Origin: Azorinus chamasolen | Lineage: Eukaryota; Mollusca; Bivalvia; Cardiida; Solecurtidae | DNA: 64,000 bases | Direction of reading: 5' to 3' | Assembly: GCA_963576725.1 (NCBI GenBank) | Contig: OY755247.1 | Location: forward strand, 14,510,526 to 14,574,525 | Shown: positions 10,351-55,343 of the stretch, one piece after another | Layout of the letters: every line of letters starts with the position of its first letter | How positions within the stretch are numbered: the first letter of the stretch is position 1 | Translations under genes and position numbers: made by a program | The notes under the pieces: generated by a model | The model's input: the letters and a program-made list of their open reading frames with translations, nothing else | Told to the model about the DNA's origin: nothing | The model's database searches: none

Positions 10351-10556
10351 AAAGTAAAACCCCGCTAATGCGACCACCAAAAAGGGGCATAATTCTGGGT
10401 GACAGAGGCAGGTGGTAGCTTAATGCAGAACGAAAGTTATGCAGAAAGCTCCTATAGGAGCTTTCTGCATAACTTTCGTCCTGCATTAAGCAACCACCTG
10501 CTTTAAACGACGCAAGTGGCTGTTTATTAAGTGGTCGCATTAGCGGGGTTGTACTG
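10351..10556. mobile_element. P2 element with core alpha
   Basis: Terminal repeats read GTAAAACCCCGCTAATGCG and CGCATTAGCGGGGTTGTACTG, with TA at 10557-10558. The core has GCTTAATGCAGAACGAAAG and the exact centre GCTCCTATAGGAGC at 10448-10461. The left first bases are mutated. Confidence 0.85.
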
Positions 10557-10635
10557 TATCAGAAGTAAGTGAAAATTATTATATATAAATATATCTAAGA
10601 TTTAGCAGACATCATTTTATAGCAAACAAAGCATT

Positions 10636-10892
10636 ATCCCTTTCCTTGTTCTGTGTTTATCTCAAATTTCAGTATCTACTAAATATTCATGAACAAAATA
10701 ATTACAATGAAATGCGGAAGGTGGAACATTGTAGACATGTTACATGTAGAAACAAGGAAAACCAGATTTGTCAAATGCCATTAGCAAACAGGGCAGACCT
10801 TGATCAGACAGCTCATATAGGAGCTGTCTTACATGTATCTGGGTCTACTCTGTTTGCAAATGCGTGAAAAGGCGTTTATATGAAGGAAAGGG
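10636..10892. mobile_element. T1a MITE
   Basis: CCCTTTCCTTGTTCTGTG at the left and GAAGGAAAGGG before TTAA (10893-10896). The core arms are GATCAGACAGCTC and GAGCTGTCT, with a 9-bp interruption (TACATGTAT) in the right arm. Confidence 0.8.
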
Positions 10893-10963
10893 TTAAATGT
10901 CACTGATTATGTGCTGTTGATCTCGAAAATTAAACTATTCAGTGCGGGAAGTGAGATGTCCTT

Positions 10964-11015
10964 TGAAAACAGTTTAAACCCCAGTTGTGAGGGTTCCTAG
11001 AAGAACCCTCTCATC
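10964..11015. repeat. Small hairpin related to the T6 core
   Basis: TGTGAGGGTTCCTAGAAGAACCCTCTCATCA folds into an arm pair GAGGGTTC/GAACCCTC. It resembles the T6 core, but the outer ends are not recognisable. Confidence 0.4.
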
Positions 11016-11095
11016 AAGGTATGCAATGATGAATGTTTTGCACGTCACACCTTTCTTCAAATCTCTTGACCTGATTGAAATTTGAAACAATCCAT

Positions 11096-11268
11096 TCGAA
11101 AATTTAGCGTTGAATATATCGGATTGCCGGACGGTTCTTACAGCTCTCTATTCGCAGTCGTTTGCCTGGAAATCTCGACATTGAAAATTTAGCGTTGAAT
11201 ATATCGGATTGCCGTACGGTTCGTACAGCTCTATTCGCATTCATTTGTCTGGAAATCTCGACATTCCT
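11096..11268. repeat. Direct duplication of about 87 bp
   Basis: Two adjacent copies containing GAAAATTTAGCGTTGAATAT, ATCGGATTGCCG and CTGGAAATCTCGACATT, with a few substitutions and a short indel between them. Confidence 0.85.
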
Positions 11269-11400
11269 AAATGTAACTTGACGCTCTTCATGTCACGAAA
11301 TGACTAGAATACTATTAAAGTGCCACACAAACCGATACAAAAATAGAATATCTGAAAATGCCACATGACAGTGCACATAAACACCAGCAACACACATTAA

Positions 11401-11623
11401 CACATTCCATCCTAGTGACGCATTTTGGCAATTCTGTAAAAAGTCACATTTTGAAAACATTGTGATAAATAGAGCATTTGCTCCATTGGAGCAAATGCTC
11501 TATTTATCACAATGGTTTCAAAACTACACAATTCTAAAATGTACCTTTTCTCTATTAAATGCTCCTTTTGGGTAGATATATTCGAAGAGGTTGGTTATAA
11601 AAAATAGCAAATGAGGGAACGGG
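11401..11623. mobile_element. T3 MITE, complete
   Basis: TTAA at 11397-11400 and 11624-11627. The ends are CACATTCCATCC and GAGGGAACGGG. The core arms are GATAAATAGAGCATTTGCTC around CATTG. Confidence 0.85.
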
Positions 11624-11925
11624 TTAAATGCGTGTTCAGCACTAATATCATTTACATGTAGGGCACTGCGACAAACAAACACTGAAATTTAATGTGTTTT
11701 TCCTTAATTTAAGACGATTGAACAAGTCTCTTAAAATTCTCATTTAAAGTTAACCTTTAAATACATGAAACGTGTGTGGTTGTATTTGCAAAAAATGTGG
11801 AGCAAGATGAATCCTAATCAGGGTCTTCACTATTTGTCATTCGAATTATTCCTTGAAATATTACCTTTTCATTACGGATTGACTCGTTTAACTAATATGG
11901 ATCAGCACTAATATACCATTACACA
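11624..11925. other. No recognisable feature
   Basis: AT-rich. Contains GACGATTGAACAAG and other phrases, but no delimitable element. Confidence 0.4.
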
Positions 11926-12121
11926 TTAATCTTTAGCCTGGTATGGGCGGATGAGTGAATACCTATGCAAACCGTTTGGATCCAGATGAGACGCCGAGTA
12001 ACTCGGCGTCTCACCTGGATCCAAACTGTTTGACAGCCTGATTGAATTTTTGTAGACAAACTGAAAATGTTGTAGGTGAAAAATTATGTAAAAATAATTT
12101 GTTCAGCAGGCTAAAGGTTGA
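11926..12121. mobile_element. T2b MITE
   Basis: TTAATCTTTAGCCTGGTATG at the left and CAGCAGGCTAAAGGTTGA at the right. The core is GATGAGACGCCGAGTAACTC with its complement, followed by GTTTGACAGCCTGATTG. Confidence 0.8.
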
Positions 12122-12221
12122 AAAGTGAGCATTTAACGAGCTAAAATTTTCCCTTATTAGTTTAACTTATTATCTGCCCTATACAAAAACTGTAGTGTCA
12201 GATCTATATAAGTTATCTATA

Positions 12222-12302
12222 TAACCAAACAGAGCAGACTCTACGGGGACCATCTGGTCGGGGTTTTCTCAGTTTACAAAAGCGTTTATAATAGGGAAAG
12301 GG
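12222..12302. mobile_element. T1 remnant
   Basis: AACAGAGCAGACTCTACGG, then GGACCATCTGGTCGGGG, then TAGGGAAAGGG before TTAA. The core palindrome is collapsed and the left outer part is absent. Confidence 0.5.
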
Positions 12303-12489
12303 TTAAATCACTAACTGCATTTCGCTACTTAATGTTCTCTTAATGCTGACAATGAACTTAACATTCTATTAATAATTTGTAATGAACACGTGTGAAAGAT
12401 TCTTTTGATCACCCTTAAAAGTTGCCATAGAAGGTGAATCAGGCTATATCTGACCGATGTTTCGGCCATTGTTTACGGAACAGCGTAGT

Positions 12490-13905
12490 AACAAGAAATA
12501 TCTTTTAAAAAGATATTCAGCGGCATTCAAATATTGACATAATGTACAAAACAATAATAATATTAAATATCTGCCAACTTAATTTCAATGTTTCGAGATT
12601 CTGTTAGTACAGGGAACTAGATCTATGAAGGGTTGCTTGTAATTATACTAGCAGAGAAGCATGCAATGGAAATGACTTGGAGTAGAATAAGCAATTATGG
12701 AAGAAATCAATTTACTTTTATAGGAAATCACTATTAAAATGTACAATGTCAAAGTATTTTTTTAAAACTATCTGAAGTTAGTTCCTCATTTTACATATTA
12801 TAAAAAATTACTTGAAAGCATGTATATTTATATTGATATGAAGATAACTAATTGAATACACTTTAAATAAAGCATACAGAATTTAGTTTTTGCTTGTGCA
12901 GAGGCTGTAATTACTTAAAGAAAGGCATGGATCAACGCATTAATTGACGTGTGTGCATCATCATTAGTGACACCATCAACTGAATATACATGTATTTTTA
13001 AAACAATATAAAGTTAGCTATCTCAACCTACTACTCGATCCAAAGCGCCAGGTGATAGAGCCGTAACAATAGCCTTCAGTAAGTAGCTTTATATCACAGA
13101 GAGCGAATAACCAGAGCCTTAATTGGTGCTGTGGTCGGGGATAGTAATTAATACTATTATTGCCACTACTCTAATATACTAAACAACATTTCTTCTTTAT
13201 TTCCTATAGCATTGCCTGTGAATTATGGTGGTTTCGGCAAACTGCCTGCTCGTCAAAGTGGATGTGATCAAATGTGGTATTAAATTGATAGCAAAATTAT
13301 AATAAATGTTTAAAAGTTTAATAGTGGTTTTGGCAAACTGGCAATAATGCTCAGCAATCATTACCATGAGGTGATAAGTACGATAATTGGTTAGGAACTG
13401 ATATAAAGTATGACACACCAAAAAATTGAATAGTCAAAATTGATCCACACCTTTTGAGGATAATAGATCTATATAGTTTTATTCAGAAATATTGTTTATG
13501 TATTTATACTCTAGTTTTGATAATGACCAGAGTAAAAAATAATTCATATTGTTTTACCGGTCATGGTAATAAACAACTATGTGACTACAGTATTGTACAT
13601 GTATTTGAATCCACCAAAAGTTGAACTAAACAACATTTTGACTGAAAACAAAAAGCATAAAGTGAGTGGCAAACGGTTTGGACCAAGACTTAAATCAAAA
13701 CTGAATGGGAGAGTAAATCATTAATAATATGTTATGTGGTCTGGGGCTGTTTTAATGACTAAACAATGTGACTATAGTATTTGAAAGCACCTCTTTATCA
13801 CTCATTGTACCCAAGGTTGAGTTAATGTGAATATGTCACCTGCTTAGCTAATATCCTGATCTGTATAAACCAAAAAATGGACCACATATCAACATTTAAT
13901 ATTTT
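12490..13905. repeat. Right arm of the 1.4 kb inverted repeat
   Basis: Reverse complement of 1267-2699. The outer boundary falls at TTTTCCTAGAGG, the centre of a truncated P2 hairpin, and the inner boundary at AACAAGAAATATC. Arms are separated by about 9.8 kb of unrelated repeats. No target-site duplication is evident, so I cannot tell one large transposon from two opposed copies of a dispersed repeat. Confidence 0.85.
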
Positions 13906-13907
13906 CC

Positions 13908-14009
13908 TAGAGGAGCTTTCTGCATTACTTTTGTCCTGCATTAAGCAACCACTTGCTTTTAAATACACTCATGTCTATTCATTAAGTGGTTGCATTAGAG
14001 GGGTTCTAC
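13908..14009. mobile_element. P2 element, right half
   Basis: Begins AGAGGAGCTTTCTGCATTAC at the hairpin centre and ends GAGGGGTTCTACTG before TA. It nearly matches the right half of the complete P2 copy that follows. The left half is replaced by the end of the inverted-repeat arm. Confidence 0.8.
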
Positions 14010-14038
14010 TGTACAATGTATAATAAACATTATGAATA

Positions 14039-14231
14039 CAGTAAAATCCCACCTAAAAGAGGTATAATTATGGGTGTTAGATGCAGGTGGTAGCTTAATG
14101 CAGGACAAAAGTAATGCAGAAAGCTCCTAGAGGAGCTTTCTGCATTACTTTTGTCCTGTATTAAGCTACCACCTGTTTATAAATACACTCATGTCTATTC
14201 ATTAAGTGGTCGCATTAGAGGGGTTCTACTG
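14039..14231. mobile_element. P2 element with core alpha, complete
   Basis: TA at 14037-14038 and 14232-14233. The ends are CAGTAAAATCCCACC and AGAGGGGTTCTACTG. The core arms are GCTTAATGCAGGACAAAAG and ATGCAGAAAGCTCC around TAGAGG. Confidence 0.9.
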
Positions 14232-14362
14232 TACACTGTATTTAGAGACTGACTTTTCAGTATCACAGAAAGCAAATATTCCAATAGACACATTATTTAG
14301 AAATTCTACTTATTCGCATAGAAATGTTTTGAAAGTAGCTCTATGAAATAAAAACAAAACAG

Positions 14363-14583
14363 TCTATTACTCTCCCAATTTGACCTGAGACTCATGCATA
14401 TTCTGTTAATTGTCGTCGGCAATCTTCGGATAAATTTACGAATGTATAAGAATACGCTATAAGAATACAATCCTCGACCAGATTTTGTTTTGCTATTTTT
14501 TGTCACAGACTATTTCGAACAATTCCGATAAACACGCCGAATATTAATCCGAGTCTCCTGTCAAATTGGGAGAGCAATAGAAT
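14363..14583. mobile_element. Unclassified inverted-repeat MITE
   Basis: Terminal repeats of about 30 bp: TCTATTACTCTCCCAATTTG and, in complement, TCTATTGCTCTCCCAATTTG, both continuing to GAGACTC. I could not fix the target duplication. No core palindrome of the T or P type. Confidence 0.7.
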
Positions 14584-14677
14584 CATTTAAAAGACTGTCT
14601 GGTCAGAGTCCTTCATTATTCGCCAACTTCAATAATAGAATGCTAAAAATGTTGACGAATGTCAAAATATGTTGATC

Positions 14678-14810
14678 TAAACCCTTTCGGTGCCAAATTT
14701 CTAATTGTCGTCTGCAAACCACTTTTGAAGCACTTTTGAAGCACATATATAGAAATAGACTTTGAGATAAAAAGTGAAGTTCCTGGTCAGACGCCGTCTT
14801 GTTTTCTTTG
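14678..14810. mobile_element. T5 MITE, left fragment
   Basis: CCCTTTCGGTGCCAAATTTC, CTAATTGTCGTCTGCAA, then GTTCCTGGTCAGACGCCGTC, where it breaks off at the core centre. Confidence 0.65.
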
Positions 14811-14844
14811 TTCGCTGCCTTATATTTCGTGTTATTAACTTAAT

Positions 14845-15455
14845 TAATCCCCCGTCACGGAGTGGGAGGGGATAATAGGAATGGCATCGGTCCGTCTGTC
14901 CGTCCGTCCGTCTCTGTCTGTCCGTAACAATTTCGTGCCCGTTCTACATATATTTCTCCTATACACCTGGAATGATTTTCATGAAACTTGTCTCAAATGT
15001 TAAACAAGTTGAGACGATGTGCAGAACACATGTGTCAGCCATGTTGGCTCAAGGTCAAGGTCACATTTGAAGGTCAAATATTTTAACTTTAATTTCCATT
15101 ACATTTTTGTGTCCGCTCCATATCTTCTAAACCCTTTGAAGGATTTTCATGAAACTTTAGTCAAATGTTAGCGAAATTGAGACGATGTCCAGAACACATG
15201 TGTCATTTATGTCGGATCAAGGTCAAGGTCACATTTGAAGGTTAAGTGTAATTTTGTTTCCGCTCCATATCTCCTATACCCCTGGAAGGATTTTCACGAA
15301 ACTTGCCTTAAATGTAAACCAAGTTGAACCTATGTGCTGAACGCATGTTATAGTCATGTCGGCTCAAGGTCAATGTCACATTTGAAGGTCAAATGCAATG
15401 TCTTAATTTAGGCGGCGGTTGGGGATTTAACTGTCCTTCGGACTGCCTTGTGGTT
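14845..15455 (+). mobile_element. Hairpin-plus-array element (pearl/Helentron-like), copy 1
   Basis: The 5-prime stem is AATCCCCCGTCAC/GTGGGAGGGGATA, then a (TCCG/TCTG)n tract (14890-14930). Three units of about 150-165 bp follow, each with ATATCTCCTATACCCC-like and GATTTTCATGAAACTTG phrases. The 3-prime stem-loop is CTGTCCTTCGGACTGCCTTG. Known pearl and DINE-1-like non-autonomous Helentrons combine hairpins, a microsatellite and tandem units; the assignment here is inference from that architecture. Confidence 0.65.
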
Positions 15456-15488
15456 TTGTTTAAATTCTGCTGATTTAATTAGCATTGC

Positions 15489-16098
15489 TACTAATCCACC
15501 GCTGCGGAACGAGAGGTGGTTACAGGAATCAGAATGACACTCGTGTGTCCATCTGTCTATCCGTAACCATTTCAGTGTCCATTCCATATCTCCTATACCC
15601 CTAGAAGGATTCTCATGAAACTTGCCTCAAATGTTGACCAAGTTGAGACGATGTGCAAAGCACTTGTGGCAGTCATGTCGACTCGAGGTCAATATCACAT
15701 TTAAAGGTCAACAATTTTAACCTTCAATTGCCTTTACATGTGCGTGTTCGCTCTATATCTGCTAAACCCTTTGAAGGATTTTCATAAAACTTGAGTCAAA
15801 TGTTAGCTAAATTGAGACAATGTGTTGACCACATGTGACAGTCATGTCGACTTAATCTCAAGGTCACATTTGAAGGCCATGTGTTCTAACCTTTAATTTC
15901 CATTATATTTTCGTTTTCGCGTCATAACTGGAAGGTTGAGTCAAATGTCGACCACACTGAAATGTCGGCAGAAGCAGTGCAATATCCATTATAGGCAACA
16001 TATCTCCTTTTCGATCACAGCACTGTTTTAAATTAAGTATATGTTATTTTGATTTTTGACGGCGGGGGATATAGCTGTCCTTTGGACTACCTTGTGTA
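15489..16098 (+). mobile_element. Hairpin-plus-array element, copy 2
   Basis: The 5-prime part is CTAATCCACCGCTGCGG then AGAGGTGGTTACAGG, a short TGTC tract, three diverged units like those of the preceding element, and a 3-prime stem-loop CTGTCCTTTGGACTACCTTG. It lies 33 bp after the first element in the same orientation. Confidence 0.65.
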
Positions 16099-16129
16099 TT
16101 TTAATATAACATTTCTTCCCCCACTGAAT

Positions 16130-16278
16130 CCTGTCGTGCTAATCCCAATATCCAAACACCCTGGATCCAGATAAGGCGCATAGTAGCCAGAAGTCTTATC
16201 AGGATCCAAGCTGTCTGGCACTCCATCGGTAGTTGTTAACGATGTGAACGCCTCGGGCGTTAGTCGGTAAAGGGTTAA
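16130..16278. mobile_element. T2-like MITE, degenerate
   Basis: ACCCTGGATCCAGATAAGGC and TCTTATCAGGATCCAAGCTG form an imperfect core. The right end is CGGTAAAGGG before TTAA. Confidence 0.55.
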
Positions 16279-16330
16279 CATATTACTTTCAGACACATTT
16301 CTCAGTGATATCAATCTATTATCTTTTTAA

Positions 16331-16550: not shown

Positions 16551-16574
16551 TTAAGCTGTATAGTGTCGTGTGCA

Positions 16575-16765: not shown

Positions 16766-16967
16766 GAACACTAATGGTGAGCATTATACATTAGTTCTAA
16801 TTTCTGGCACCAGAAAATATGCTTTTGGATATAATTTCCAGTTTTTTGTGTTTATTTTGAATCATGTTAAAATTTCAGTCTGAGCGTGTCTTTGAATATA
16901 CCTTAATAAATATGGACTGTCTAGCTATACAAAAATATTAGTTTCTACCCTCTTTGTTTTTCCGGTT

Positions 16968-20560: not shown

Positions 20561-20649
20561 ATGTGCATTCGACTTTTGTTCGACGAATGTTAGATATTGT
20601 TCTATGGGGACTGTCTAATCAGCGTCTGTTCTGTGTGCTCATAAAAATA

Positions 20650-20853
20650 CAGTAAAACTCCTCTAAACCGGAATTCTAGTAGAGAAGAATTTGGATACTT
20701 TTAGACAGGTGGTTGCTTAATGCAGGGTGGAAGTCATGCAGAAAGCTCCTCTAGGAGCTTTCTGCATGACTTTCACCCTGCTTTAAGCTGCCACCTGTCT
20801 CCAAGACCGATATTTATGCTAAATTTAGCGTCCGGTTTAGAGAGGTTTCACTG
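20650..20853. mobile_element. P3 element with core alpha, complete
   Basis: TA at 20648-20649 and 20854-20855. CAGTAAAACTCCTCTAAACC at the left, GGTTTAGAGAGGTTTCACTG at the right. The core is GCTTAATGCAGGGTGGAAG, then CATGCAGAAAGCTCC around TCTAGG. It differs at about four positions from the copy at 22799. Confidence 0.92.
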
Positions 20854-20879
20854 TATACAGAATATGCTCTAATGTGTGG

Positions 20880-22798: not shown

Positions 22799-23002
22799 CA
22801 GTAAAACTCCTCTAAACCGGAATTCTAGTAGAGAAGAATTTGGATACTTTTAGACAGGTGGTTGCTTAATGCAGGGTGAAAGTCATGCAGAAAGCTCCTC
22901 TAGGAGCTTTCTGCATGACTTTCACCCCGCATTAAGCTGCCACCTGTCTCCAAGACCGATATTTTTGCTAAATTTAGCGTCCGGTTTAGAGAGGTTTCAC
23001 TG
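22799..23002. mobile_element. P3 element with core alpha, complete
   Basis: TA at 22797-22798 and 23003-23004. Same ends as the copy at 20650 and about 98 percent identical by eye over 204 bp, so both are young. The sequence after it (ATCTGATTCTACAGTTTCTG) is T1b interior, so it probably landed inside a T1b copy. Confidence 0.92.
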
Positions 23003-26063: not shown

Positions 26064-26365
26064 CCCTTCTCTTGCTGAATTTTAAAATACATTTCTCCTT
26101 CTTTACCATGACCTGTTGTATATTTACATATATCTTCACTGTGTACAAGTATTTCGCTGTGCAATCACTGCTGTGGAGTGCACTGGTTGCACAATCAACT
26201 TGTAAATAGTGCATACCCTGATGAGACAGCTCCTGCAGGAGCTGTCTCATCTGGGTCTTCACTATTTACAGGTACATGTATATTGACATGAATAGCAAGC
26301 ACTACAGTAAGCTAATAAATATTCATTATGTCATTATTCCTTACATGAATATGGAACAGGACAAG
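26064..26365. mobile_element. T4 MITE with a T1b-type right end
   Basis: TTAA at 26060-26063, CCCTTCTCTTGCTGAATTTT, a full T4 core with centre GCTCCTGCAGGAGC (26229-26242), then TTGACATGAATAGCAAGC. Instead of closing at AAGGGTTAA it continues AATAAATATTCATTATGTC, CCTTACATGAATATGG, the inverted T1b left terminus, ending GGACAAGGG. Confidence 0.7.
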
Positions 26366-29352: not shown

Positions 29353-29552
29353 TTAAAGTCAAAGTCATGCAGTCTGTCAAAAGTAACCATATTTAACCCT
29401 GCATTAGTTTTATCTCAAAATAGTTCACAAGCCATGGAATCACACAAAAAATAGTAGGCATACTGACAATGACAATTAAATGATATTATGGCAATTCATG
29501 CATATGGCAATGAACTAGTCTTATATTGGCCTTGTTTGTCAGCTATGGTCGT

Positions 29553-29759
29553 TGGCTAGTTTTAGATCCTATCTCTTTCAATAAATCTACCGAAAAGGAG
29601 CATTAATTAGAGAATATGAAAGTTTTAGAAGTTTGAAGTTTGAAACCATTGTGATAATAGAGAATTTGCTCGTATAGGAGCAAATGCTCTATTTATCACA
29701 ATGGTTTCACAAAGTGAATTTTACAGAGTCGTCAAAACTCGTCAATATGAGGAAATGGG
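29553..29759. mobile_element. T3 MITE, left terminus missing
   Basis: TTTTAGATCCTATCTCTTTC, ACCGAAAAGGAGCATTAATT, core with centre CTCGTATAGGAG, GAGTCGTCAAAACTCGTC and ATGAGGAAATGGG before TTAA (29760-29763). Confidence 0.8.
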
Positions 29760-30322
29760 TTAATCAAGATCGGCATTGTTTGCGCCATGAATATTTTTCA
29801 ACGGTCAATTCGGCAAATTGTTGCAGAAACAGTTCTACAAATAAAACAATAGAATCACTTAAAAGTATTAGGATTCCATTACATATACACGGAGCTCTGT
29901 TGAACCGCAAATTTCACGCCACCCATTTTTCACACGTGTGAAATTTGCGGCCCCATTTTTCACATAATTTGTGAAAATTGCGTTTTGCTCCTATACCCCC
30001 CCTTCAAAGCCTGACGCATTTTTCACGTATGTGAAAAATGCGTCGAGAAGATGTGCTCAAATATTCATTTCAAAACCCGCGACGCATTTTTCACTCTTGA
30101 GAATATATTGAAGTTGACCAATTTCTTTGGTCATTTCGGTTATAGATCAAGGTCGCAGGAATCGAAATGCCAGATTTGTAGTACAACTCAGAAGTTGATT
30201 TGGGTGCTTGCTCAACATACTTATTTGATTAAAATATAATTATGGGTCACATGGGTAAAACGTATTTGGAGTTCCTTGTTAATCCTTTAGTGTCCACATA
30301 TTTGATATGCATTTGATGTCCC

Positions 30323-34494: not shown

Positions 34495-35787
34495 CAAAGG
34501 TGCCCGACGCATGCTTGGACTCATCCATGGAACACCCCCCCCCCCCCCAAAAAAAAAAAAAAAAAAAAAAAAAAATTGTGATCGAAGTATGTTCAACTGG
34601 CCTAAAACTATCTATTTGAACCTTAAACCACTCCGAAAAACGAGAAAAACACGACCCGGAAAAAATTTCCTATCGGGTCTATATATGTATTGAAAGGTAC
34701 CTAACTACGACAGGTCAGCGGCGGAAAATACAACAGTCATGTTTTTCAAAGTCTTACAGCAAAGCCAATTCAACACCGATTTCAATCAGTTTGGTCTTGA
34801 TCCGTTCCAAATTCCATATGCTAAGCGGCACAGTTAGTGCTTTCCTTAAATATTGCTCCGTCTTGTCGCTGCAAGACCGCGAATTTGAAAAAACGCTAGA
34901 GCGAAACGATGTGACTCCCGCCAGGATGCATAGACGTATATAGGGGGATCTGTATTCGTTAATCTTTTCAACAAAAACGCGAATTATGGTTAAACACTAT
35001 CTAAAAACATTAAACTCGCCGCAATTAAAACGGTGCTTACTATTTCCAGTCAGCTACGAGGCGCCAGTTTTCTTTCTCCAACTTTCCTTTTGAACGGATG
35101 CGACCATTTTGCTGTGACCCGGCTCATAGACTATTCGATATGCAAATTGACTACTACTTCCGGGCCACAGCGATTTGGCCACCTCCGTTCAAAACGAAAG
35201 TACGAGAAAGAAAACTGGCGTCTGATAGCAGACTACAAATAGCCAGCACCGTTTTAACTGCGGTAAGTTGAATGTTTTTCGAATGTGTTTCAGCATAATT
35301 CGCGTTTTTGCTGAAAAGTTTAACGAATACAGATCCCCCTATATACTTCTATGCATCCTGGCGGGAGTCACATCGTTTCGCTCTAGCGTATTTTCAAATT
35401 CGCGGTCTTGTAGCGACAAGACGGGGCAATATTTAAGGAAAGCACTAATTGTGCCGCTTAGCATATGGAATTTGGAACGGATCAAGACCAAAATGATTAA
35501 AATCGGTGTTGAATTGGCTTTGCTGTAAGACTTTGAAAAACATGACTGTTGTATTTTCCGCAGCTGATCTGTCGTAGTTAGATACCTTTCAATACATATA
35601 TAGACCCGATAGGAAATTTTTTCCGGGTCGTGTTTTTCTTGTTTTTCGGAGTGGTTTAAGGTTCAAATAGATAGTTTTAGGCTAGTTTAACAGACTTCGA
35701 TCACAATTTTTTTTTTTTTTTTTTTTTTTTTTTGGGGGGGGGGGGGGGGTTCCATGGGTGAGTCCAAGCATGCGTCGAGCACCTTTG
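34495..35787. mobile_element. hAT-like giant palindrome, copy 1
   Basis: ACTGGGCG is duplicated at 34487-34494 and 35788-35795. The ends are CAAAGGTGCCCGACGCATGC and GCATGCGTCGAGCACCTTTG. Each end runs into a C-run then A-run (34535-34575) or its complement. The complementarity extends to the middle (about 35135), so nearly the whole 1,293 bp can fold back. An 8-bp duplication and CA...TG ends suggest the hAT superfamily, which is inference. An 86-codon frame (35268-35528) lies in the right arm with no known domain. Confidence 0.85.
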
Positions 35788-37989: not shown

Positions 37990-38350
37990 CAGTGCTCCCT
38001 CTCTACAACGGCCCTCTCAATAACGATTCACTCCTTACAACAACACATGTCACTGTTTCCGAACAACAAGGCTTCAGAAACAACTGTTTTCCATCGTATT
38101 TTCTTTATGCCTCAATCAAACCCTATGTTATGACCACTCTTTAGAATCGTCACTTTGTGACGATTCTAAAGAGTGGTCACAACACAGGGTTTGATAGAGG
38201 CACAACGGTTTTAGTTCTCGAAATACACCTTATCAGGGAATCTGCAATCAAGATAATTATATTTGATTTTCCCTCCCTATAACAACTCCCTCTGAACAAC
38301 ACATACAATCTTCGTATCCCAAAGGGTGTCGTTGTAGAGAGGGAGCACTG
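37990..38350. mobile_element. P7 element with core beta
   Basis: CAGTGCTCCCTCTCTACAAC at the left after TA, TTGTAGAGAGGGAGCACTG at the right. The centre (38106-38200) has CCCTATGTTATGACCACTC, TTTAGAATCGTC and the full complement, the same core as P6 elements with different ends. Confidence 0.85.
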
Positions 38351-44920: not shown

Positions 44921-45124
44921 CAGTAAAACCTCGATTATTCGAATTTTCGGTATAGAAGAATTTAGACCCTTTTAGGCAGGTGGCTGCTTAATGCATGGTG
45001 AAAGTCATGCAGAAAGCTCCTAGAGGAGCTTTCTGCATGACTTTCACCATGCATTAAGCTGCCACCTGTCTTAAAGATCGATAATAATACGTATTTTAGT
45101 GTTCGGATAATCGAAGTTTTACTG
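44921..45124. mobile_element. P1 element with core alpha, complete
   Basis: TA on both sides. CAGTAAAACCTCGATTATTC at the left, GGATAATCGAAGTTTTACTG at the right. The core GCTTAATGCATGGTGAAAG, CATGCAGAAAGCTCC around TAGAGG is a long perfect stem. A P2-like end fragment lies just before it (44865-44905). Confidence 0.92.
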
Positions 45125-46553: not shown

Positions 46554-46795
46554 CCCTTCTCTTGCTGATTTTTAAAACACATTTCTCCTTCTTTACCCAT
46601 GCCCTGTTGTATAATTACATATATCTTCACTGTGTACAAGTATTTCGCTGTGCAATCACCGCTGTGGAGTGCACTGGTTGCACAATCAACTTGTAAATAG
46701 TGCAGACCCTGATGAGACAGCTCCTGCAGGAGCTGTCTCATCTTGGTCTTCACTATTTACAGGTAGGTATATTGACGTGAATAGCAAGCGAATGG
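46554..46795. mobile_element. T4 MITE, complete
   Basis: TTAA at 46550-46553 and 46796-46799. CCCTTCTCTTGCTGATTTTT at the left, AATAGCAAGCGAATGG at the right. Centre GCTCCTGCAGGAGC at 46720-46733. A second, shorter inverted pair GTGCAATCACCGCTGTGG/GCACTGGTTGCAC lies in the left flank. Confidence 0.88.
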
Positions 46796-47872: not shown

Positions 47873-48049
47873 GGGTCCATGCTTATAAAGCTTTTTAGCT
47901 GAGTCTGAGTTCGTTCTCAAGCTTGTGATTGGTCAGATTTGAGATCTCAAGTTTTGATTGGTCAGATTTGAGCCAAAGGCTCAAATCTTACCAATCAAAA
48001 ACTTGAGAACTAACTCAGACTCAACTAAAAGTTTTATAAGCATGGACCC
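47873..48049. mobile_element. 177-bp palindromic element
   Basis: GGGTCCATGCTTATAAAGCT at the left and TTATAAGCATGGACCC at the right. Arms continue through AACTCAGACTCA and GATTGGTCAGATTTGAG/CTCAAATCTTACCAATC. A 31-bp block (GATTGGTCAGATTTGAG) is doubled in the left arm. The target duplication is unclear. A core alpha fragment follows (48058-48115). Confidence 0.75.
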
Positions 48050-49205: not shown

Positions 49206-49217
49206 TTATGTATTTAA

Positions 49218-49677
49218 CCCTTTACTATATGAATATTCATGTAATAAATAATGACTTCATGGATATTGATTAGATTAATTGTTACAATAGCACATGGGCA
49301 CAGGAATGGTTGGCCATGGTATAAACTGTAGAAGCATATCTACAGTACAGTGAAACCCCGCTAATGCGACCACTTAATAAACAGCCACTGATGTCGTCTA
49401 AAGCAGGTGGTTGCTTAATGCAGGACGAAAGTTATGCAGAAAGCTCCTATAGGAGCTTTCTGCATAACTTTCGTCCTGCATTAAGCTACCACCTGCCTCA
49501 GCCACCCAGAATTGTGCCCCTTTTTGGTGGTCGCATTAGCGGGGTTTTACTGTATACCTTTAGCATGAGTATAAGCATGCAGAGCAGGCCCTAATCGGAC
49601 AGCTCCTATAGGAGCCGTCTGACCTGAGTTTACTCTGTTTGCAAAGAAGTTGAAAAACGTACTTATGGAGTAAAGGG
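49218..49677. mobile_element. T1b MITE split by P2
   Basis: TTAA at 49214-49217 and 49678-49681. CCCTTTACTATATGAATATT, ATAAATAATGACTTCATGG, TAAACTGTAGAAGCATATCT, P2 at 49348-49552, then GCAGAGCAGGCCCTAATCGG, centre GCTCCTATAGGAGC (49602-49615), TTATGGAGTAAAGGG. A further T1b fragment (49682-49764) follows. Confidence 0.88.
49348..49552. mobile_element. P2 element nested in T1b, complete
   Basis: TA at 49346-49347 and 49553-49554. CAGTGAAACCCCGCTAATGC at the left, GCATTAGCGGGGTTTTACTG at the right. Core GCTTAATGCAGGACGAAAG, exact centre GCTCCTATAGGAGC (49443-49456). Confidence 0.93.
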
Positions 49678-49768
49678 TTAATCAGGGTCTGCTCTGTTTG
49701 CTGAATGAATGATATAAATCTGACTCTACATCTTCTTCCATGGCAAAACTTGTTCATATGCCTTTTAA

Positions 49769-49989
49769 CCCATTACCTCATAGGTTATTTTTAGATACAA
49801 CCTATTTGAATAAATCTACCGAAAAGGAGCATTAACTAGAGAAAGGGGACATTTTAGAATTTTGTAGTTTGAAACCATTGTGATAAATAGAGCATTTGCT
49901 CCTATAGGAGCAAATGCTCTATTTATCACAATGGTTTCACAAAGTGGCTTTTACGGAGTCGTCAAAAGTCGTCAATACGAGGGAATGGG
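49769..49989. mobile_element. T3 MITE, complete
   Basis: TTAA at 49765-49768 and 49990-49993. CCCATTACCTCATAGG at the left, ACGAGGGAATGGG at the right, exact centre GCTCCTATAGGAGC (49898-49911). The core stem is about 34 bp per arm without mismatch. Confidence 0.92.
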
Positions 49990-50009
49990 TTAAACAATCA
50001 CCCTGTTAA

Positions 50010-50252
50010 CCCTTCGCTTGCTATTCGCGTCAATACACCTACCTGTAAATAGTGAAGACCCAGATGAGACAGCTCCTGCAGGAGCTGTCTCATCAGGGTC
50101 TGCACTATTTACAAGTTGATTGTGCAACCAGTGCACTCCACAGCAGTGATTGCACTGCGATATGCTTGTACACAGTGGATATATATGTAATTATACAACA
50201 GGGCATGGGTAAAGAAGGAGAAATGTATTTTAAAATTCAGCAAGAGGAAGGG
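50010..50252. mobile_element. T4 MITE, complete, inverted
   Basis: TTAA at 50006-50009 and 50253-50256. CCCTTCGCTTGCTATTCGCG at the left, TTCAGCAAGAGGAAGGG-like end at the right. Centre GCTCCTGCAGGAGC (50072-50085). Confidence 0.9.
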
Positions 50253-50416
50253 TTAATTAATATTCATGGTGTCAATATGTCATACATTAACATTCACGCA
50301 GTAATAGTTAAACAAGAGAAATGAGAAAGTGCCGAATATCTTAATTACGAGGAGAGTAATTTTGTTGGAGATATTGTATTTTCTGAACAAATGAGTCCAT
50401 TGTATTTTAATTAACC

Positions 50417-50540
50417 ATTATGCTGCAGACTGCGATCTAACAAGCGTTTGCAAGATCCCGATGAAACGCTGGCTGCGTAATCTGTCGTCTCATCAGGCTC
50501 CAAACTATTTTTACTTTTGGGCAACAGTTTCTCGAACGCA
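50417..50540. mobile_element. T2 MITE, decayed
   Basis: CCATTATGCTGCAGACTGCG, CCCGATGAAACGCTGGCTG and GTCGTCTCATCAGGCTCC with TTAA at 50413-50416. The right end is not found. Confidence 0.5.
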
Positions 50541-50816
50541 GAAACTAGGCAAATGCTTCAAATCATTGCTCCAGATATAGATTATCAAGCATGATTTTAT
50601 TCAGTGGGAAATAATGTGAGTAAGACATAGTTTATGGCAAGCTGTCTACACAACTAGGTGTTTCATTCATTTCCATCAGCACTTGTAACTCTCGTTTCTT
50701 ACTTATTTTATTAATGCGCGTTATATCATTGCGCAAGGAAGTGTTTCTTTGAAAGACTTGCTTGAAACTTAATTCACCTCAGTATTATTACACCGTGTGT
50801 AATTAACCCTTTCCCT

Positions 50817-50973
50817 GTTCTATGTTTATTCCAAATTTCAATACCTACTGAATATTCGTGAACAAAAAAAGTTATAATGAAATATAGAAGGTAGAACATC
50901 GTATAGGAGCTATCTGATCTGGGTATACTCTGTTTGCAAATGCGCGAAAACACGTTTATATGAGGGAAAGGGT
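50817..50973. mobile_element. T1a MITE, left core arm lost
   Basis: TTAA at 50813-50816 and 50974-50977, both ends intact (CCCTTTCCCTGTTCTATG, ATGAGGGAAAGGG). ATAGAAGGTAGAACATCG joins directly to the centre TATAGGAGCTATCTGATC. Confidence 0.85.
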
Positions 50974-51068
50974 TTAACATTTTGACTGCATGAAACGAGT
51001 GCGTAGTAGAACTTGTCTTAAGCGGCCATTCATTTATTCAACATGAATCTTAAAAAGCAAGTGGATGC

Positions 51069-51215
51069 TTAACCCTTTCGGCGTCAAATTACTAATTGCC
51101 GTATGCAATCCATTTTTTATTAAATAAATTCGGTACAATAAGGACACGAGATAATTAATTGCAAATTTCAAAGGAATAAAGCACAGATATAGAAATAGAG
51201 ATTGATGTCTTACAT
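51069..51215. mobile_element. T5 MITE, left part
   Basis: CTTAACCCTTTCGGCGTCAA, ACTAATTGCCGTATGCAATC, CAAAGGAATAAAGCACAGAT and AGAAATAGAGATTGATG. The core and right end are missing. Confidence 0.65.
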
Positions 51216-51279
51216 TGTTTTCGTAAACGTATTTAAACATGCAAAACATCTCAAAAGCAATTAGTGAAGCAATGACATA

Positions 51280-51599
51280 CAGTTGAACTTCGATATCTCG
51301 AACTTCAAGGGACTATATAAATTAGTTCGAGATATCAGAAGTTCGAGTTATCCGATTTGCAATCTCTACAATTTCTCAATTTCATAGCATAATGCAGGTC
51401 TACAGTTATGCTGAAAGCTCCTGCAGGAGCTTTCAGCATTACTGTAGAACTACATTAAGCTGTGAAATGTGTTTCTAGATATGCGTAGTGATACATTTTA
51501 GAGCAACTCTGTATTGTAAGATTTTGGAAGGATAGAACTTTTAGATTGAGTTATCCCGAAGTTCGAGTTATTCGAGTTCGAGATATCGAAGTTTAACTG
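51280..51599. mobile_element. P4 element with core alpha, complete
   Basis: TA at 51278-51279 and 51600-51601. CAGTTGAACTTCGATATCTC at the left, GATATCGAAGTTTAACTG at the right. The core is ATAATGCAGGTCTACAG, ATGCTGAAAGCTCC with centre GCTCCTGCAGGAGC at 51417-51430, the same centre as in T4. Confidence 0.9.
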
Positions 51600-51601
51600 T
51601 A

Positions 51602-52089
51602 ATTGGCTATGCAAATAGCGACCAGCGACCTTGTCACAGATTCAATAGTTGGTCTGTGTCTTTCTACTGTTTGACACTTGCGACCACCTGTATCGCTTTA
51701 TAAAATCCAACATTGGCCCTAATTAAGTGACACAGCTCTGAGGCAGATATACCGAATCCCTTTGCTTCATATGATACCATATTGGAAGATTTCGTGTATG
51801 ATACCACTACGGACGAACGAAGCCACTCCCAGTGAGGTCTGTTAGTACATGTATTACATTAGTCTTGCATTTTACAACTCTGGTGTGAATTTTTTCCCTT
51901 TGAACTCGTGTTGAAATATGGACCAGCGTAACGCAATTAAAAAAAGTTTTCAACGTGCGTCATCAACTGCAATGCAGTTTGAAAGAAAAAATGCTTTTAA
52001 AATATGTCAAGGTGATTGGTTTGACACAATATAGAAAACATATTAATGTTTAATCACATGTGTTCATGGTAACTTGCAAATTGCTCAGA
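51602..52089. other. No recognisable feature
   Basis: Sequence without an array or hairpin in the window's families. Confidence 0.4.
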
Positions 52090-52325
52090 CGGTATTCAAT
52101 CAGCACCCATTTAGTGGTATGTATGTCATCAAGTATACATTGTTTAAACTGCAGTGTGTAGTTGTCACAACCGTGCCCAGACTTTGTCCCATCACCACCC
52201 ATGGACTGTTCGATGTATCGCCCAGTATACATTGTTTAAACTGCAAAGTAGTGTGATAACCGTGCTCAGACTGTGTTCTATCACCACCCATTGAGTGTTC
52301 GATATGTCATCCAGTATGCATTGAT
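52090..52325. repeat. Tandem units of about 95-105 bp, 2.5 copies
   Basis: Each has GTATACATTGTTTAAACTGC, ACCGTGCNCAGACTNTGT and ATCACCACCCAT, then TGTTCGATATGTC. Confidence 0.8.
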
Positions 52326-52444
52326 TGCATGCTGATTTGTTCAAGCTGATTCCCTGTAACAATATTTGCAATTAATGTTTAACATGATAGTCGTTGGAAG
52401 ACAGTGAATATCAAAACGTAATCGATGCATAGATTTGTGAATAT

Positions 52445-53015
52445 TTTAACCATTTACCCTAGAGACAGACACGCCTTCCGACGCCATTGCAAACGGTGAA
52501 GACCCATATCAGAAGCCCATGTGAAAACTGTCAGTTCAGAGTCTTCTCTTGGTGCTTATGGGATAATATAAATCTAGTTCTATATTTTCAGCCATGGACA
52601 ATAAATTCTGAAGGGAGGTGATCCCCCGAGAGCAAACATTGCAACACAAAAAGAGAAAATTGCAGACTCGGTTTTATTGAGTCTGTTCATGAACTGTAAT
52701 TGAAAGTGCAATACTGCTCACGCCCCCTAGCACCGGCATAAGCGGTATTCAATTTTCAAATTTAACAAGAAGTACTGAAATTCATGATCTCGAAGGATCA
52801 GAAGGTATAACAACACTGAGAATGAAGTACGGGGCGACGTTTTACAGCCGCCACACAAGCACTTAACACCTGCTGTTGTGAAGATTATAAATTCTGAAGG
52901 GAGGTGATCCCCCGAGAGCAAAAATTGCAACACAAAAAGAGAAAATTGCAGTTCCCACATACCATTGTAAAGTGTCATCTAATTAATATTCATGATATCA
53001 TTATTTCATACATGA
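52445..53015. mobile_element. T1b MITE, inverted, with an insertion
   Basis: CATTTACCCTAGAGACAGAC, TTGCAAACGGTGAAGACCCA, TCTATATTTTCAGCCATGG at the left; TCTAATTAATATTCATGATA, TCATTATTTCATACATGA at the right. A foreign segment separates the parts. Confidence 0.65.
52603..52957. repeat. Dispersed repeat with a 66-bp terminal direct repeat
   Basis: ATAAATTCTGAAGGGAGGTG, ATCCCCCGAGAGCAAA and AAAAAGAGAAAATTGCAG occur at about 52608-52674 and again at 52888-52955, nearly identical, like the two ends of an LTR-type or duplicated unit. A third diverged copy of the first half lies at 54630-54800. Confidence 0.7.
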
Positions 53016-53033
53016 CTATGCACCAGAGTTACG

Positions 53034-53157
53034 GTTAACAGTGAGTTTTATAAACAGTGGAGTCCCTGGTCAGACGCCGCCTTGAAAAGACGTCGTCTGA
53101 TCTTGGACTGCACTATTTGTCGTGGTGCATTTATGCGACATTGGCGGTGAAAGGGTT
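53034..53157. mobile_element. T5 MITE, right part
   Basis: Core TCCCTGGTCAGACGCCGCC and complement, GTCGTGGTGCATTTATGCG, ACATTGGCGGTGAAAGGG before TTAA. The left outer part is replaced by TAACAGTGAGTTTTATAAAC. Confidence 0.75.
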
Positions 53158-53159
53158 AA

Positions 53160-53313
53160 AGGTTGGTTTAATTCAATATGAAAGGGTATATTTTGTGAGA
53201 GTAATTGGAATTATAACAGTGTAGACACTGGTCAGAAGGCTCCTCTAGGAGCCCTCTGATGTCGGTATACACTGTTTTAAATGGCAGCCATCGTTCCCCG
53301 CATTCAAATGATT
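53160..53313. mobile_element. T6-like MITE
   Basis: CACTGGTCAGAAGGCTCC around TCTAGG and complement, TACACTGTTTTAAATGGCAG, CCCCGCATTCAAATG before ATTAA. The core is intermediate between T1 and T6. Confidence 0.6.
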
Positions 53314-53379
53314 AAACCATGTAATTAAAAGTTTGAATTAAGAAATTGGAAGACATTGTTTATTATAAGCAATCCTGTT

Positions 53380-53475
53380 TTGTTTGTTGTTGATTTTGGA
53401 TTTTTGTTGTTTTCTGTTGTTTTGTTTTTGTTTTGTTTTGTTGTTGTGTTTTTTTATCGTGTTTGTTTGTTTTTT
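53380..53475. repeat. TG/TTG low-complexity tract
   Basis: Runs of TTTTG and TTGTTG. The 72-codon frame from 53433 starts in it and is not evidence of a gene. Confidence 0.7.
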
Positions 53476-53860
53476 GTTGGGATTATTGTGGGGCGTTTAT
53501 AAGAGCTAGCGGCAATATTTGTTGGTATTTTTGTGTTTTGATTGGGTTTGTTGTTTCTGAGGGGGTTGAAAAGGGGACCAGCTGTTTAGATATGTGTTTG
53601 GACGTTGTATCCTTTCAACAATGTTTTCCAAATTTAATTAATTTTAATTGAAAGATCGCGATCGGTTAGAAAGCTGACGTTCGCATGTTTCCTTGCAAAT
53701 GAGAATCCTTGATTGCCTGATTATTGTAATTATGTCGTGAATTAATTGTAGCTGGTCGACTTGTAATATATCATCCAGATATGATCAGCTCGTTTAAAGT
53801 AAATTTATTTCCAGATAGGATCATCCCATTGGACTTAAAACCGCTTCAAGATAGGATTAT
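53476..53860. other. No recognisable feature
   Basis: No array or hairpin. Confidence 0.35.
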
Positions 53861-54010
53861 ACCCTTAGCCATAAAGCTTGCGTGTCGCATCTCTCTATAC
53901 CTTTAGCCATAAATCTTGCGTGTCGCATCTCTCTATACCCTTAGCCATAAAGCTTGCGTGTCGCATCTCTATGCCCTTAGCCATAAAGCTTGCGTGTCGC
54001 ATCTTTCTTC
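53861..54010. repeat. 36-bp unit, four tandem copies
   Basis: AGCCATAAAGCTTGCGTGTC then GCATCTCTCTATACCCTT, nearly identical copies, so recently expanded. Confidence 0.9.
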
Positions 54011-54089
54011 TAACAAGTTAGGTCGCACCTAACTACATTAAACCCCCTCTAAACCGGACGTTCAAATTAGAATCAGCACTAGTTTTTAA

Positions 54090-54315
54090 CCATTTTCTTC
54101 ATATTAACTCCTGTTCACGCATTTGCAAACAGAGTAGACCCAGATCAGACGGCTCATATGGGCCATCTGATCAGGGTCTGCTCTAATTGCTGATGGAATG
54201 TGATATATCTGTTTCTTTACTTTCTAAAATCGCTACAATGTTCCACCTTCTATGTTTCAGTATAACTATTGTGTCCATGATTGGTATTTGGAATAAACAT
54301 AGAACAAGGGAACAG
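54090..54315. mobile_element. T1a MITE, inverted, complete
   Basis: TTAA at 54086-54089 and 54316-54319. CATTTTCTTCATATTAACTC at the left, AACATAGAACAAGGGAACAG at the right. Core CCAGATCAGACGGCTCATAT, its centre GCTCATATGGGCC. Confidence 0.85.
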
Positions 54316-54347
54316 TTAAGACAAGTGGCAACTTAATTAAGTGTTAA

Positions 54348-54570
54348 CCCTTTCCTCCATAAATGCGCCTTTCTACGCCTCTGTAACAATCACCTATTGA
54401 AACCATTGTGATAAATAGAGCATTTGCTCCTATAGGAGCAAATGCTCTATGTATATCACAATGGTTTCAAACTACAATACTTTTACTTTTTTCTTTTCTC
54501 TAGTTAATGCTCCTTCTCAGTAGATTTATTCAAAGTGGTTGGATCTAAAAATAGCCTATGAGGGAATGGG
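54348..54570. mobile_element. T3 MITE with a T1-like left terminus
   Basis: TTAA at 54344-54347 and 54571-54574. The left end, CCCTTTCCTCCATAAATGCG then CCTTTCTACGCCTCTG, matches the outer end of inverted T1b at 59602. The core (exact centre GCTCCTATAGGAGC, 54426-54439) and the right end (ATGAGGGAATGGG) are T3. Confidence 0.8.
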
Positions 54571-54629
54571 TTAAAATTAAGCAGAAAGCTCTCGTTGGTC
54601 GTAAGAATGTGTCTCCCATCTTTCTTATA

Positions 54630-54800
54630 ACGGAAATTCTGAAAGTGGGAGATCATTCGAAAGCAAAAGCAGCCGTACAAAAAGAGAAAACTGCAGACTC
54701 GCTTTTATTGAATCTGTTCATTGGCAGTTATTAAAAGTGCAACACTACTCATTCCCCCTGGCATCGGCTTAAGCGGTATTCAATTTTTATAACTAATGAC
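54630..54800. repeat. Diverged copy of the 52603 repeat
   Basis: AAATTCTGAAAGTGGGAGAT, AAAAAGAGAAAACTGCAG, ACTCGCTTTTATTGAATCTG, TCCCCCTGGCATCGGCTTAA and GCGGTATTCAATTTT align with 52610-52757. Confidence 0.7.
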
Positions 54801-55101
54801 AAACCAGTTCCTTTTTCATAAATTGTGATATTGTGCAAACATAAAATGGTTTGCATGCATGATTAGATTTATAACTTGTGGCAAACCAAGCTTCATTAGA
54901 ACTAGTATGTTTATAAACGTTTTATACATACATTTGCTCGGATTTCCAATTTTTTTTCGTTTAAAAAACCTTCTCGCCATTATATAAAAGTGTCGAATTA
55001 CAACATATTGTTTAATGTATAAGTGTTGATGAGGGTCTACGCTCCCCATCAAGATTCTGTGATACAGTAAATGCTGGCAATTGCGACCACACATTCAGTA
55101 A

Positions 55102-55343
55102 CCATTCTCTTGCTGAATTTTAAAATATATTTCTCCTTCTTTGCCCATGCCCTGTTGTATAATTACATATATCTTCACTGTGTACACGTATTTCGCTGTG
55201 CAGTCACTGCTGTTGAGTGCACTGGTTGCACAATCCACTTGTTAATAGTGCAGACCCTGATGAGACAGCTCCTGCAGGAGCTGTCTCATCTGGGTCTCCA
55301 CTATTTACAGGTAGGTATATTGACGTGAATAGCAAGCGAAGGG
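55102..55343. mobile_element. T4 MITE, complete
   Basis: GTAA (from TTAA) at 55098 and TTAA at 55344-55347. CATTCTCTTGCTGAATTTTA at the left, AATAGCAAGCGAAGGG at the right. Centre GCTCCTGCAGGAGC (55268-55281). Confidence 0.88.

Follow-up and report, generated by a model that had tools for sequence, protein, structure and literature searches.

A palindromic hairpin tip common to TTAA and TA elements of Azorinus chamasolen, possibly kept as an internal cis-acting site

In the genome of the bivalve Azorinus chamasolen, the hairpins of several families of miniature inverted-repeat transposable elements (MITEs) carry the same palindromic 14-bp tip at the dyad, in elements with TTAA ends as well as in elements with TA ends. 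We analysed this tip in a stretch of 64,000 nucleotides of contig OY755247.1 (assembly GCA_963576725.1), hereafter called the window, and followed it through the genome. We suggest that the hairpin dyad is the site of an internal cis-acting palindrome with the tip as its core, kept in source copies because it aids their amplification. We put the probability of this reading at about 0.4; it overlaps with the alternatives considered below, and the odds of all of them need not sum to one.

The ten exact 14-mers listed in the original prediction are all present, with GCTCCTATAGGAGC at window positions 10448, 49443, 49602, 49898 and 54426, and GCTCCTGCAGGAGC at 26229, 46720, 50072, 51417 and 55268. 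The one-base variants listed beside them are real as well, although their starts (6693, 7255, 10811, 29668 and 63368) lie up to nine bases from where they had been placed, and tips whose central dinucleotide differs, at 14123, 20745, 22894, 45016 and 53239, had been overlooked. When up to two mismatches are allowed, the window contains 28 matches to GCTCCTATAGGAGC and 19 to GCTCCTGCAGGAGC, where shuffled sequences predict 0.04 and 0.01. In the whole genome (1.72 Gb in 137 contigs, including the window), GCTCCTNNAGGAGC occurs at 389,419 places and its reversed-pattern control at 58, while the everted arrangement AGGAGCNNGCTCCT, in which the half-sites are turned outwards, occurs at 33 places and its own reversed control at 4. 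Judged by the reversed and everted controls, the half-sites, their order and their inward orientation all matter. Chance had been judged unable to explain the shared 14-mer, and it is indeed ruled out by the shuffles and by the genome-wide counts; had the matches been confined to a few copies, this would have counted against the idea, as stated beforehand, but they are not.

The structure of the hairpins was examined in a sample of 264 kb, consisting of the window and twenty 10-kb stretches of contigs C1-C10; most later steps add 30 overlapping 3-kb loci, and copies with identical surroundings were counted once. A hairpin was called when at least 16 of 23 arm positions were complementary. The 264 kb contain 147 motif sites with up to two mismatches, 58 of them exact with any central dinucleotide. 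Fifty of these 58 exact motifs are located at a hairpin dyad and eight are not, so the claim that the 14-mer is always at the dyad was nearly right. A search blind to the motif found 158 near-perfect palindromes in the same sequence; the motif (up to two mismatches) lies no more than 3 bp from the dyad in 82 of them and is absent from that position in 76.

The arms below the tip belong to three families, fewer than had been thought, because T1, T1b, T4 and T6 have homologous arms. These share arm A, AGGAGC-CGTCTGATCWGGGTCTRCTCTGTTTGC and variants of it; arm B, AGGAGC-TTTCTGCATNACTTTCNNCCTGCATTAAGCNNCCACCTGC, is found in the P elements, and arm C, AGGAGC-AAATGCTCTATTTATCACAATGGTTTC, in T3. The element families that were described as unrelated are thus partly related, and three arm families remain. 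The right arm could be read at 58 of the genome-wide places and was classed by eye as A in 44, B in nine and C in five, with no fourth kind. When the consensus arms of A, B and C are compared without gaps, they are identical throughout positions 2-7 and less alike at position 8, in agreement with the expectation that identity between families is highest at the centre and lower outward. Beyond the tip, the arms were otherwise alike in one of six pair tests (p = 0.027), and the other five gave p values of 0.23-0.99.

The whole elements are ~210-260 bp long. T elements have TTAA followed by CCCTTTCCCT-, CCCATTCCCT- or CCCTTCTC-like ends, and P elements have TA and CAGTAAAACC-like ends at approximately equal distances from the dyad. 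Most of the T3 and T1 copies listed, like the consensus sequences of T1, T3 and T4, have TTAA at both ends. The T-family ends TTAACCCTTTCCCT, TTAACCCATTCCCT and TTAACCCTTCTC fit the piggyBac rule CC[C/T]T, from which the CCCA of T3 departs slightly, and the P families combine a TA duplication with CAGT.. ends (TACAGTAAAACC), which we take to be the signature of pogo elements. In a test for ends at fixed distances, T-type ends were present in 63 of 144 arm-A and 22 of 28 arm-C hairpins, and P-type ends in 27 of 56 arm-B hairpins; as a background, 2000 random centres gave 104 T and 7 P. Neither end type was seen in 81/144 A, 29/56 B and 6/28 C hairpins. In this test and sample, P ends never flanked an A or C hairpin on both sides, and T ends were not seen around any B hairpin. 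Since arms A and C in the sample go with TTAA and piggyBac-like ends, and arm B with TA and pogo-like ends, the tip spans two transposase superfamilies, which bears out the earlier statement that it occurs in both TTAA and TA elements. We also considered that the hairpins might be independently mobile elements nested in others. This is unsupported, as no arm family in the sample was found with ends of the other element type, many hairpins having neither type.

We tabulated the tips of hairpins whose arms had been located in the sample without reference to the tip. The 152 arm-A hairpins include 87 with the AGGAGC 14-mer, one with an AGGAGC 13-mer, 23 with ACTCGG, eight with AAGGCGG, five with ATGCGG and 28 unclassified. 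AGGAGC is present in 42 of 63 arm-B hairpins, the other 21 being unclassified, and arm C (32 hairpins) has 15 with the AGGAGC 14-mer, 11 with a 13-mer form that has one base fewer at the dyad, and six unclassified. No clear alternative tip class was therefore found on arms B and C among these 63 and 32 hairpins. On arm A, the clear alternatives (ACTCGG, ATGCGG and AAGGCGG, 36/152) indicate that tips did change, and these alternative tips are palindromes too. Genome-wide, exact A arms (GATCAGACG..CGTCTGATC) occur at 90,365 places, and the matches listed include three kinds of tip and decayed forms; arm C occurs at 115,032 and arm B at 64,509 places, and about 100 listed places for each of B and C have AGGAGC tips or decayed forms of them, with few exceptions. 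The pattern CCGCATNATGCGG has 9,463 genome-wide matches and its control 2. Arm-A hairpins with the tip CCGCATAATGCGG or CCGAGTTACTCGG, in TTAA families with other outer sequence, are located at window 60772-60802, at L031 4501 and at L033 9516.

Variation among copies distinguishes the hairpin from the rest of the element. We aligned 154 copies that cover at least 80% of the query (50 of T1, 38 of T3, 17 of T4 and 49 of P2b) and separated private changes, seen once, from shared changes, seen in at least two copies; the tests are site-wise, on alignments of related copies, rather than comparisons of tree-based rates. Over all copies, private mutations strike the tip about as often as elsewhere. 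Counted per site-copy with CpG sites left out, the tip and the outer sequence have 10/533 and 106/6630 private changes in T1, 14/408 and 100/4150 in T3, 5/188 and 65/2268 in T4, and 8/526 and 52/4580 in P2b. Shared variation in the tip, arm, outer sequence and terminal repeat amounts to 0.071, 0.055, 0.174 and 0.185 in T1, to 0.042, 0.019, 0.093 and 0.151 in T3, to 0.000, 0.010, 0.025 and 0.067 in T4, and to 0.066, 0.128, 0.366 and 0.165 in P2b. It is lower in the tip than in the terminal repeat in each family (p = 0.0026 for T1, 0.023 for T3, 0.0029 for T4 and 0.0048 for P2b), and the comparison of the tip with the outer sequence gives p = 0.0019, 0.08, 0.071 and 1.9e-7 in the same order. The arm is likewise lower than the outer sequence (p = 4.8e-11, 4.2e-7, 0.054 and 1.3e-11) and lower than the terminal repeat in all four families. 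The original prediction had left the choice between a function of the tip and an exchange of tips between families. The combination of low shared and normal private variation favours function, and free exchange is unsupported in view of arms B and C, on which the sample shows no clear alternative tips.

The conserved core extends beyond the 14-mer in two of the arm families. For this comparison, arms were defined by their distal parts (342 of A, 83 of B and 89 of C) and counted without gaps. In arms A and B alike, AGGAGC is followed by TCTG at positions 10-13, which gives the common form CAGANNGCTCCTNNAGGAGCNNTCTG of ~26 bp; arm C has only AGGAGC in common with them. In arm A, positions 8-9 are weaker (0.45 and 0.49 bits) and position 13 is G in 70%, and in arm B, position 8 is weaker (0.95 bits) than positions 9-13 (1.18-1.47 bits). 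Some outer parts of the arm are richer in information than the tip; the arms had been located by their distal portion.

In addition to this core, the distance between the dyad and the element end is kept in most arm-A copies, at ~69-71 bp from the TTAA end, even though the spacer between them diverges. An exact TTAACC end lies 40-130 bp from the dyad in 61 arm-A hairpins, of 144 found by the same search. The dyad is exactly 69.0 bp from this end in 25 of the 40 copies with AGGAGC; by lineage, the same distance is found in 16 of 26 T1 and nine of ten T4 measurements. Among the other arm-A tips, AAGGCGG is at 70.5 in four of five, ATGCGG at 68.5 and 69.5, and ACTCGG at 68.5 and 70.5 in two of six; one of four T6 distances is 71, and eight of the 61 tips are unclassified. 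In the TA elements, the arm-B dyad is 102 bp from the end (26 of 46 distances). The consensus ends of T1, T4, D1 and D4, with D1 taken from one copy and D4 from two, agree at 14 of 27 spacer positions (9-35) between T1 and T4 and at 6-9 of 27 in the other pairs, at 20-23 of 27 arm positions (36-62), and at five to seven of the first eight. Among these lineages, the arm is thus more alike than the spacer, but not clearly more so than the outermost bases.

This spacing can be compared with the ends of piggyBat and piggyBac elements, on whose palindromes transposase dimers sit through their C-terminal cysteine-rich domains (PMC11707139). According to the parts of that study used here, piggyBat motif pairs recur every 44 bp, with motifs at 11-16, 55-60 and 99-104, and the palindromes start 3 bp after the motifs, the third (P3) occupying 107-120. 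The 44-bp period and the position of P3 place the second of the three units, P2, at 63-76 by inference, and these are the bases of the 14-mer here when the dyad is at 69. The piggyBat segment LE45-88 binds transposase, and the best activity is that of a dimer of dimers on LE88, the first 88 bp (PMC11707139). From the coincidence of the 69-bp dyad with the expected P2 position, we read the tip as a predicted inner transposase site. The likeness concerns position, and a difference is that the inner palindrome here forms the tip of a long hairpin and is also found in TA elements. A first palindrome, near 24 or 19, is weakly supported (shuffle p 0.001-0.002 on seven hand-chosen representatives).

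Transposases of both kinds reside in the genome. For the piggyBac transposase family PF13843 there are 110 matches, several of them intact, and for DDE_1 (PF03184, pogo-type) at least 151, many of them intact. Locus L057 (C7:59094400-59098200) contains an intact frame of 511 aa that matches PF13843 over the whole profile and piggyBat (9c0f) with an E value of 3.6e-38, in an alignment that spans residues 77-506 and pairs the C-terminal cysteines. The right end of the L057 element, TTAACCCTTTCCCTGTT, matches the two ends of T1 at 14/14 and 22/25 bases, and related copies are found on C9, on C19 and at two further places on C7. A T1-like piece lies upstream of the gene in autonomous piggyBac copies (L057, C7:53333732 and C7:51552155), and a segment matching 904-1069 is turned the other way round in two of the copies, as if inverted between hairpin arms.

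How the proposed site might work can be sketched from these comparisons. The hairpin with its tip would be retained in source copies of non-autonomous elements by helping their amplification. In the TTAA families, the palindrome would be the inner of two sites for a piggyBat-like transposase dimer, perhaps with the C-terminal cysteine-rich domains on the palindrome and a second dimer loaded ~45 bp inside the first. For the TA elements, we suspect with less confidence that the hairpin module was captured once or that the same DNA-binding factor helps them too. In a broader version, which we put forward only tentatively and think somewhat less probable than the site itself, a factor that may be a helper transposase, a domesticated piggyBac-type domain or a host dimer binds CAGANNGCTCCTNNAGGAGCNNTCTG in TTAA and TA elements alike and promotes their amplification.

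Several observations weigh against a cis-acting site of this kind. The ATGCGG, ACTCGG and AAGGCGG lineages, which make up 36 of 152 arm-A hairpins, amplified without AGGAGC; as these lineages are multi-copy, AGGAGC is not indispensable in the TTAA families. Shared variation in the tip is not significantly below that of the outer sequence in T3 and T4, nor is the tip always the best conserved part. The arm is lower than the tip in T1 and T3 and higher in T4 and P2b, so that what was kept appears to be the whole hairpin, including its tip. The spacing has exceptions as well: the other four of six ACTCGG distances are 89.5-121.5, three of four T6 distances are 60, 86 and 109, and the arm-C dyad lies at 85 rather than 69 (nine of 11 with the 14-mer). 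The L057 transposase matches piggyBac (6x67) about as well as piggyBat (E = 1.2e-37). The 3.8-kb read of L057, which is without the left end, contains no tip match better than three mismatches; the three matches at that level all lie inside the coding frame, the tip is collapsed in the T1-like pieces, and two further hairpins have degenerate ACTCGG-type tips. In piggyBat itself, the inner site P3 restricts activity (PMC11707139), and a piggyBat-type site alone does not explain the TA elements.

The tip might instead have been inherited without any function. In that case, several MITE families, across superfamilies too, would have picked up a single ancestral hairpin module, in which the tip happens to be the portion still undiverged. 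This overlaps with the preferred explanation as to origin. It accommodates the homology of arm A across T1, T4, D1, D2, D4 and T6, the TCTG that arms A and B share outside the 14-mer, and a possible derivation of C from A, whose distal arms resemble each other weakly (shuffle p 0.01-0.017). In an unconstrained element, however, source lineages would be expected to differ from one another as much in the hairpin as in the spacer and the terminal repeats, which is not what we see; moreover, the ~69-bp spacing is kept in T1, T4, D1 and D4 where the spacer sequence is not. For these reasons, we consider descent alone to be somewhat unlikely.

We think it unlikely, too, that a host DNA-binding protein rather than a transposase is what recognises the palindrome, as a dimer on AGGAGC half-sites with a two-base spacer, and thereby aids expression, replication or repair. 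Such a protein would give the best account of a core common to TTAA and TA elements, and also of the freedom of the central two bases in T1 and P2b, where their shared variation is 0.233 and 0.310 (0.032 in T3 and 0.000 in T4, where they are not free). The 69-bp spacing from the TTAA end and the other tips on arm A are left unexplained by it.

An exchange of tips, through recombination or template switching at extruded hairpins or through homogenisation by ectopic conversion, is more doubtful still. At least four tips are found on arm A, with the change starting at the edge of AGGAGC, and an inversion between hairpin halves distinguishes copies of the autonomous element. In addition, deletions concentrate at the dyad, which points to an unstable hairpin: among the 154 copies of the four alignments, 22 deletions of at least 4 nt span it and 36 fall at all other places. 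In the half of the copies nearest to the consensus, private changes in the tip and outside it number 11/294 and 109/3388 in T1 and 4/120 and 38/1336 in T4. The corresponding values of 3/225 and 76/2115 in T3 and 3/281 and 40/2254 in P2b tell against our preferred explanation, in that fewer private tip changes in near-consensus copies may reflect some homogenisation, or young tips that are mildly protected. Over all copies, where private tip mutations occur at about the normal rate, there is no support for an ongoing conversion of the tip, and the near-consensus T3 and P2b copies leave room for it. The absence of an alternative tip class on arms B and C in the sample, and the lack in B of a long homology to A for pairing, also argue against exchange. 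Finally, it is very improbable that any perfect hairpin tip drifts to this sequence by structural or mutational convergence: at 10 of 27 arm positions, paired changes in the two arms have preserved palindromy in a set of five arm-A lineages (24 copies of T1, 11 of T4, seven of D2 and two each of D1 and D4, with T6 left out of lineage comparisons because its pattern found no copy and its consensus was one copy with a wrong end), but different tips persist on other hairpins of this sample, and private mutations, over all copies, do strike the tip.

The nearest precedent is the CMITE elements of Acropora corals (PMC2872659), of which ~1,600 copies were estimated. Like the T elements, they are TTAA elements with piggyBac-like CC[C/T]T ends, and they comprise several families in which different terminal repeats surround a common internal region of 75 bp that is more conserved than the terminal repeats; its authors suggested a role of this region in transposition. 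They differ in that the words palindrome, hairpin and stem-loop are absent from the main text of that paper, and the parts of it used here do not mention sharing with a TA superfamily. The highly conserved domains of short interspersed elements (SINEs), such as the V domain (PMC6887750), are likewise modules common to non-autonomous elements, including the MER6 MITE; their setting is that of retroposons, however, and the abstract does not describe the V domain as a palindrome. KolobokP elements (PMC9587614) are TTAA elements rich in bivalves, for which a semi-palindromic target of a homing nuclease is discussed. We rejected a Kolobok or KolobokP identity for the T families because Kolobok termini are 5'-RR and those here are CCC; the long terminal direct repeats of KolobokP were also not seen in our elements. 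In searches of open-licence full texts, judged by title and opening of the abstract, we saw no report of a palindromic tip common to TTAA and TA elements. The arm strings had no match in literature text, and the 13-mer string matched only an unrelated leukaemia paper. Beyond this genome, a scan of IMG/VR for arm-A hairpins gave six stretches with 6-7-base centres, which is approximately what chance would give by a rough estimate.

In the window, the TTAA elements with arm C are a T3 element with TTAA ends at 6561-6789 on the forward strand, whose hairpin (6665-6734) has the one-base variant tip at 6693; a T3 hairpin at 11449-11523 with the 13-base centre GCTCCATTGGAGC, in an element at 11396-11627 on the reverse strand; a T3 element at 29536-29764 on the forward strand with the variant at 29668; a T3 hairpin at 49870-49939, with arms 100% complementary around the exact tip at 49898, in an element at 49765-49994; and a T3 element at 54343-54574 on the reverse strand with the exact tip at 54426. 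With arm A, there is a TTAA-type T1 element at 7087-7335 on the forward strand, which has a decayed left end, the right end ..GGGTTAAC and the variant tip at 7255. The T4 hairpins, of the T4 lineage of arm A, lie at 26198-26273, 46689-46764, 50041-50116 and 55237-55312 around the exact GCTCCTGCAGGAGC copies at 26229, 46720, 50072 and 55268. Degenerate arm-A hairpins are found at 49602-49615 (the former T1b, with exact GCTCCTATAGGAGC) and at 53239-53252 (tip GCTCCTCTAGGAGC), and a T6 hairpin with arm A has the one-base variant tip GCTCCCATAGGAGC at 63368-63381. The hairpin at 60772-60802 is of lineage D1, with arms as in other A hairpins and the tip CCGCATAATGCGG instead; a peptide read across a D1 hairpin gave no match at E 0.001 in a protein search.

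The arm-B hairpins of the window comprise two of P2, at 10408-10501 (exact GCTCCTATAGGAGC at 10448, in a TA-type element at ~10348-10558) and at 49398-49501 (exact tip at 49443, element ~49346-49556); two of P2b with the tip GCTCCTCTAGGAGC, at 20698-20805 (tip at 20745, in an element at 20648-20857 with TACAGT.. at both ends) and at 22847-22954 (tip at 22894); two further P hairpins with the tip GCTCCTAGAGGAGC, at 14077-14182 (tip at 14123) and 44969-45076 (tip at 45016); and one of P4 at 51379-51468, with exact GCTCCTGCAGGAGC at 51417.

We also noticed two other hairpin families, with TCTAAAGAGTGG arms and with GTTACAATAG arms, in which some copies have the tip CACTTTGTG in common, with three-base loops. 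These families are located at window 38105-38205, L031 7444, L033 5698 and L039 617, and they are possibly a second case of tip sharing. A hairpin family GGTCAGATTTGAGCC(AAA)GG(C/T)TCAAATCTGACC without the AGGAGC tip was found at L036 4096 and L034 524, with related arms at window 47893-48030. The window further contains an inverted repeat at 34495-35787, whose 628-nt arms are 93% complementary and 37 nt apart, a second one at 58472-58808 with 150-nt arms, and, at 7861-9699, a coding-like minisatellite with open frames of the repeated peptide ..YQLRIPNLVCEFILGWRSVAYHFQVTVTLTLTF...

It is still an open problem how a few MITEs rise to copy numbers in the hundreds of thousands, and the conservation described here points to the hairpin and its palindromic core. 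The idea is open to test, since the core is delimited (~26 bp), its usual distance from the transposon end is known and there is a candidate protein that might bind it. If the site also serves the TA elements, it would link two transposition systems that are usually kept apart. One palindromic mobilisation signal would then serve two unrelated transposase superfamilies, as a common control module of the MITE load of this genome.

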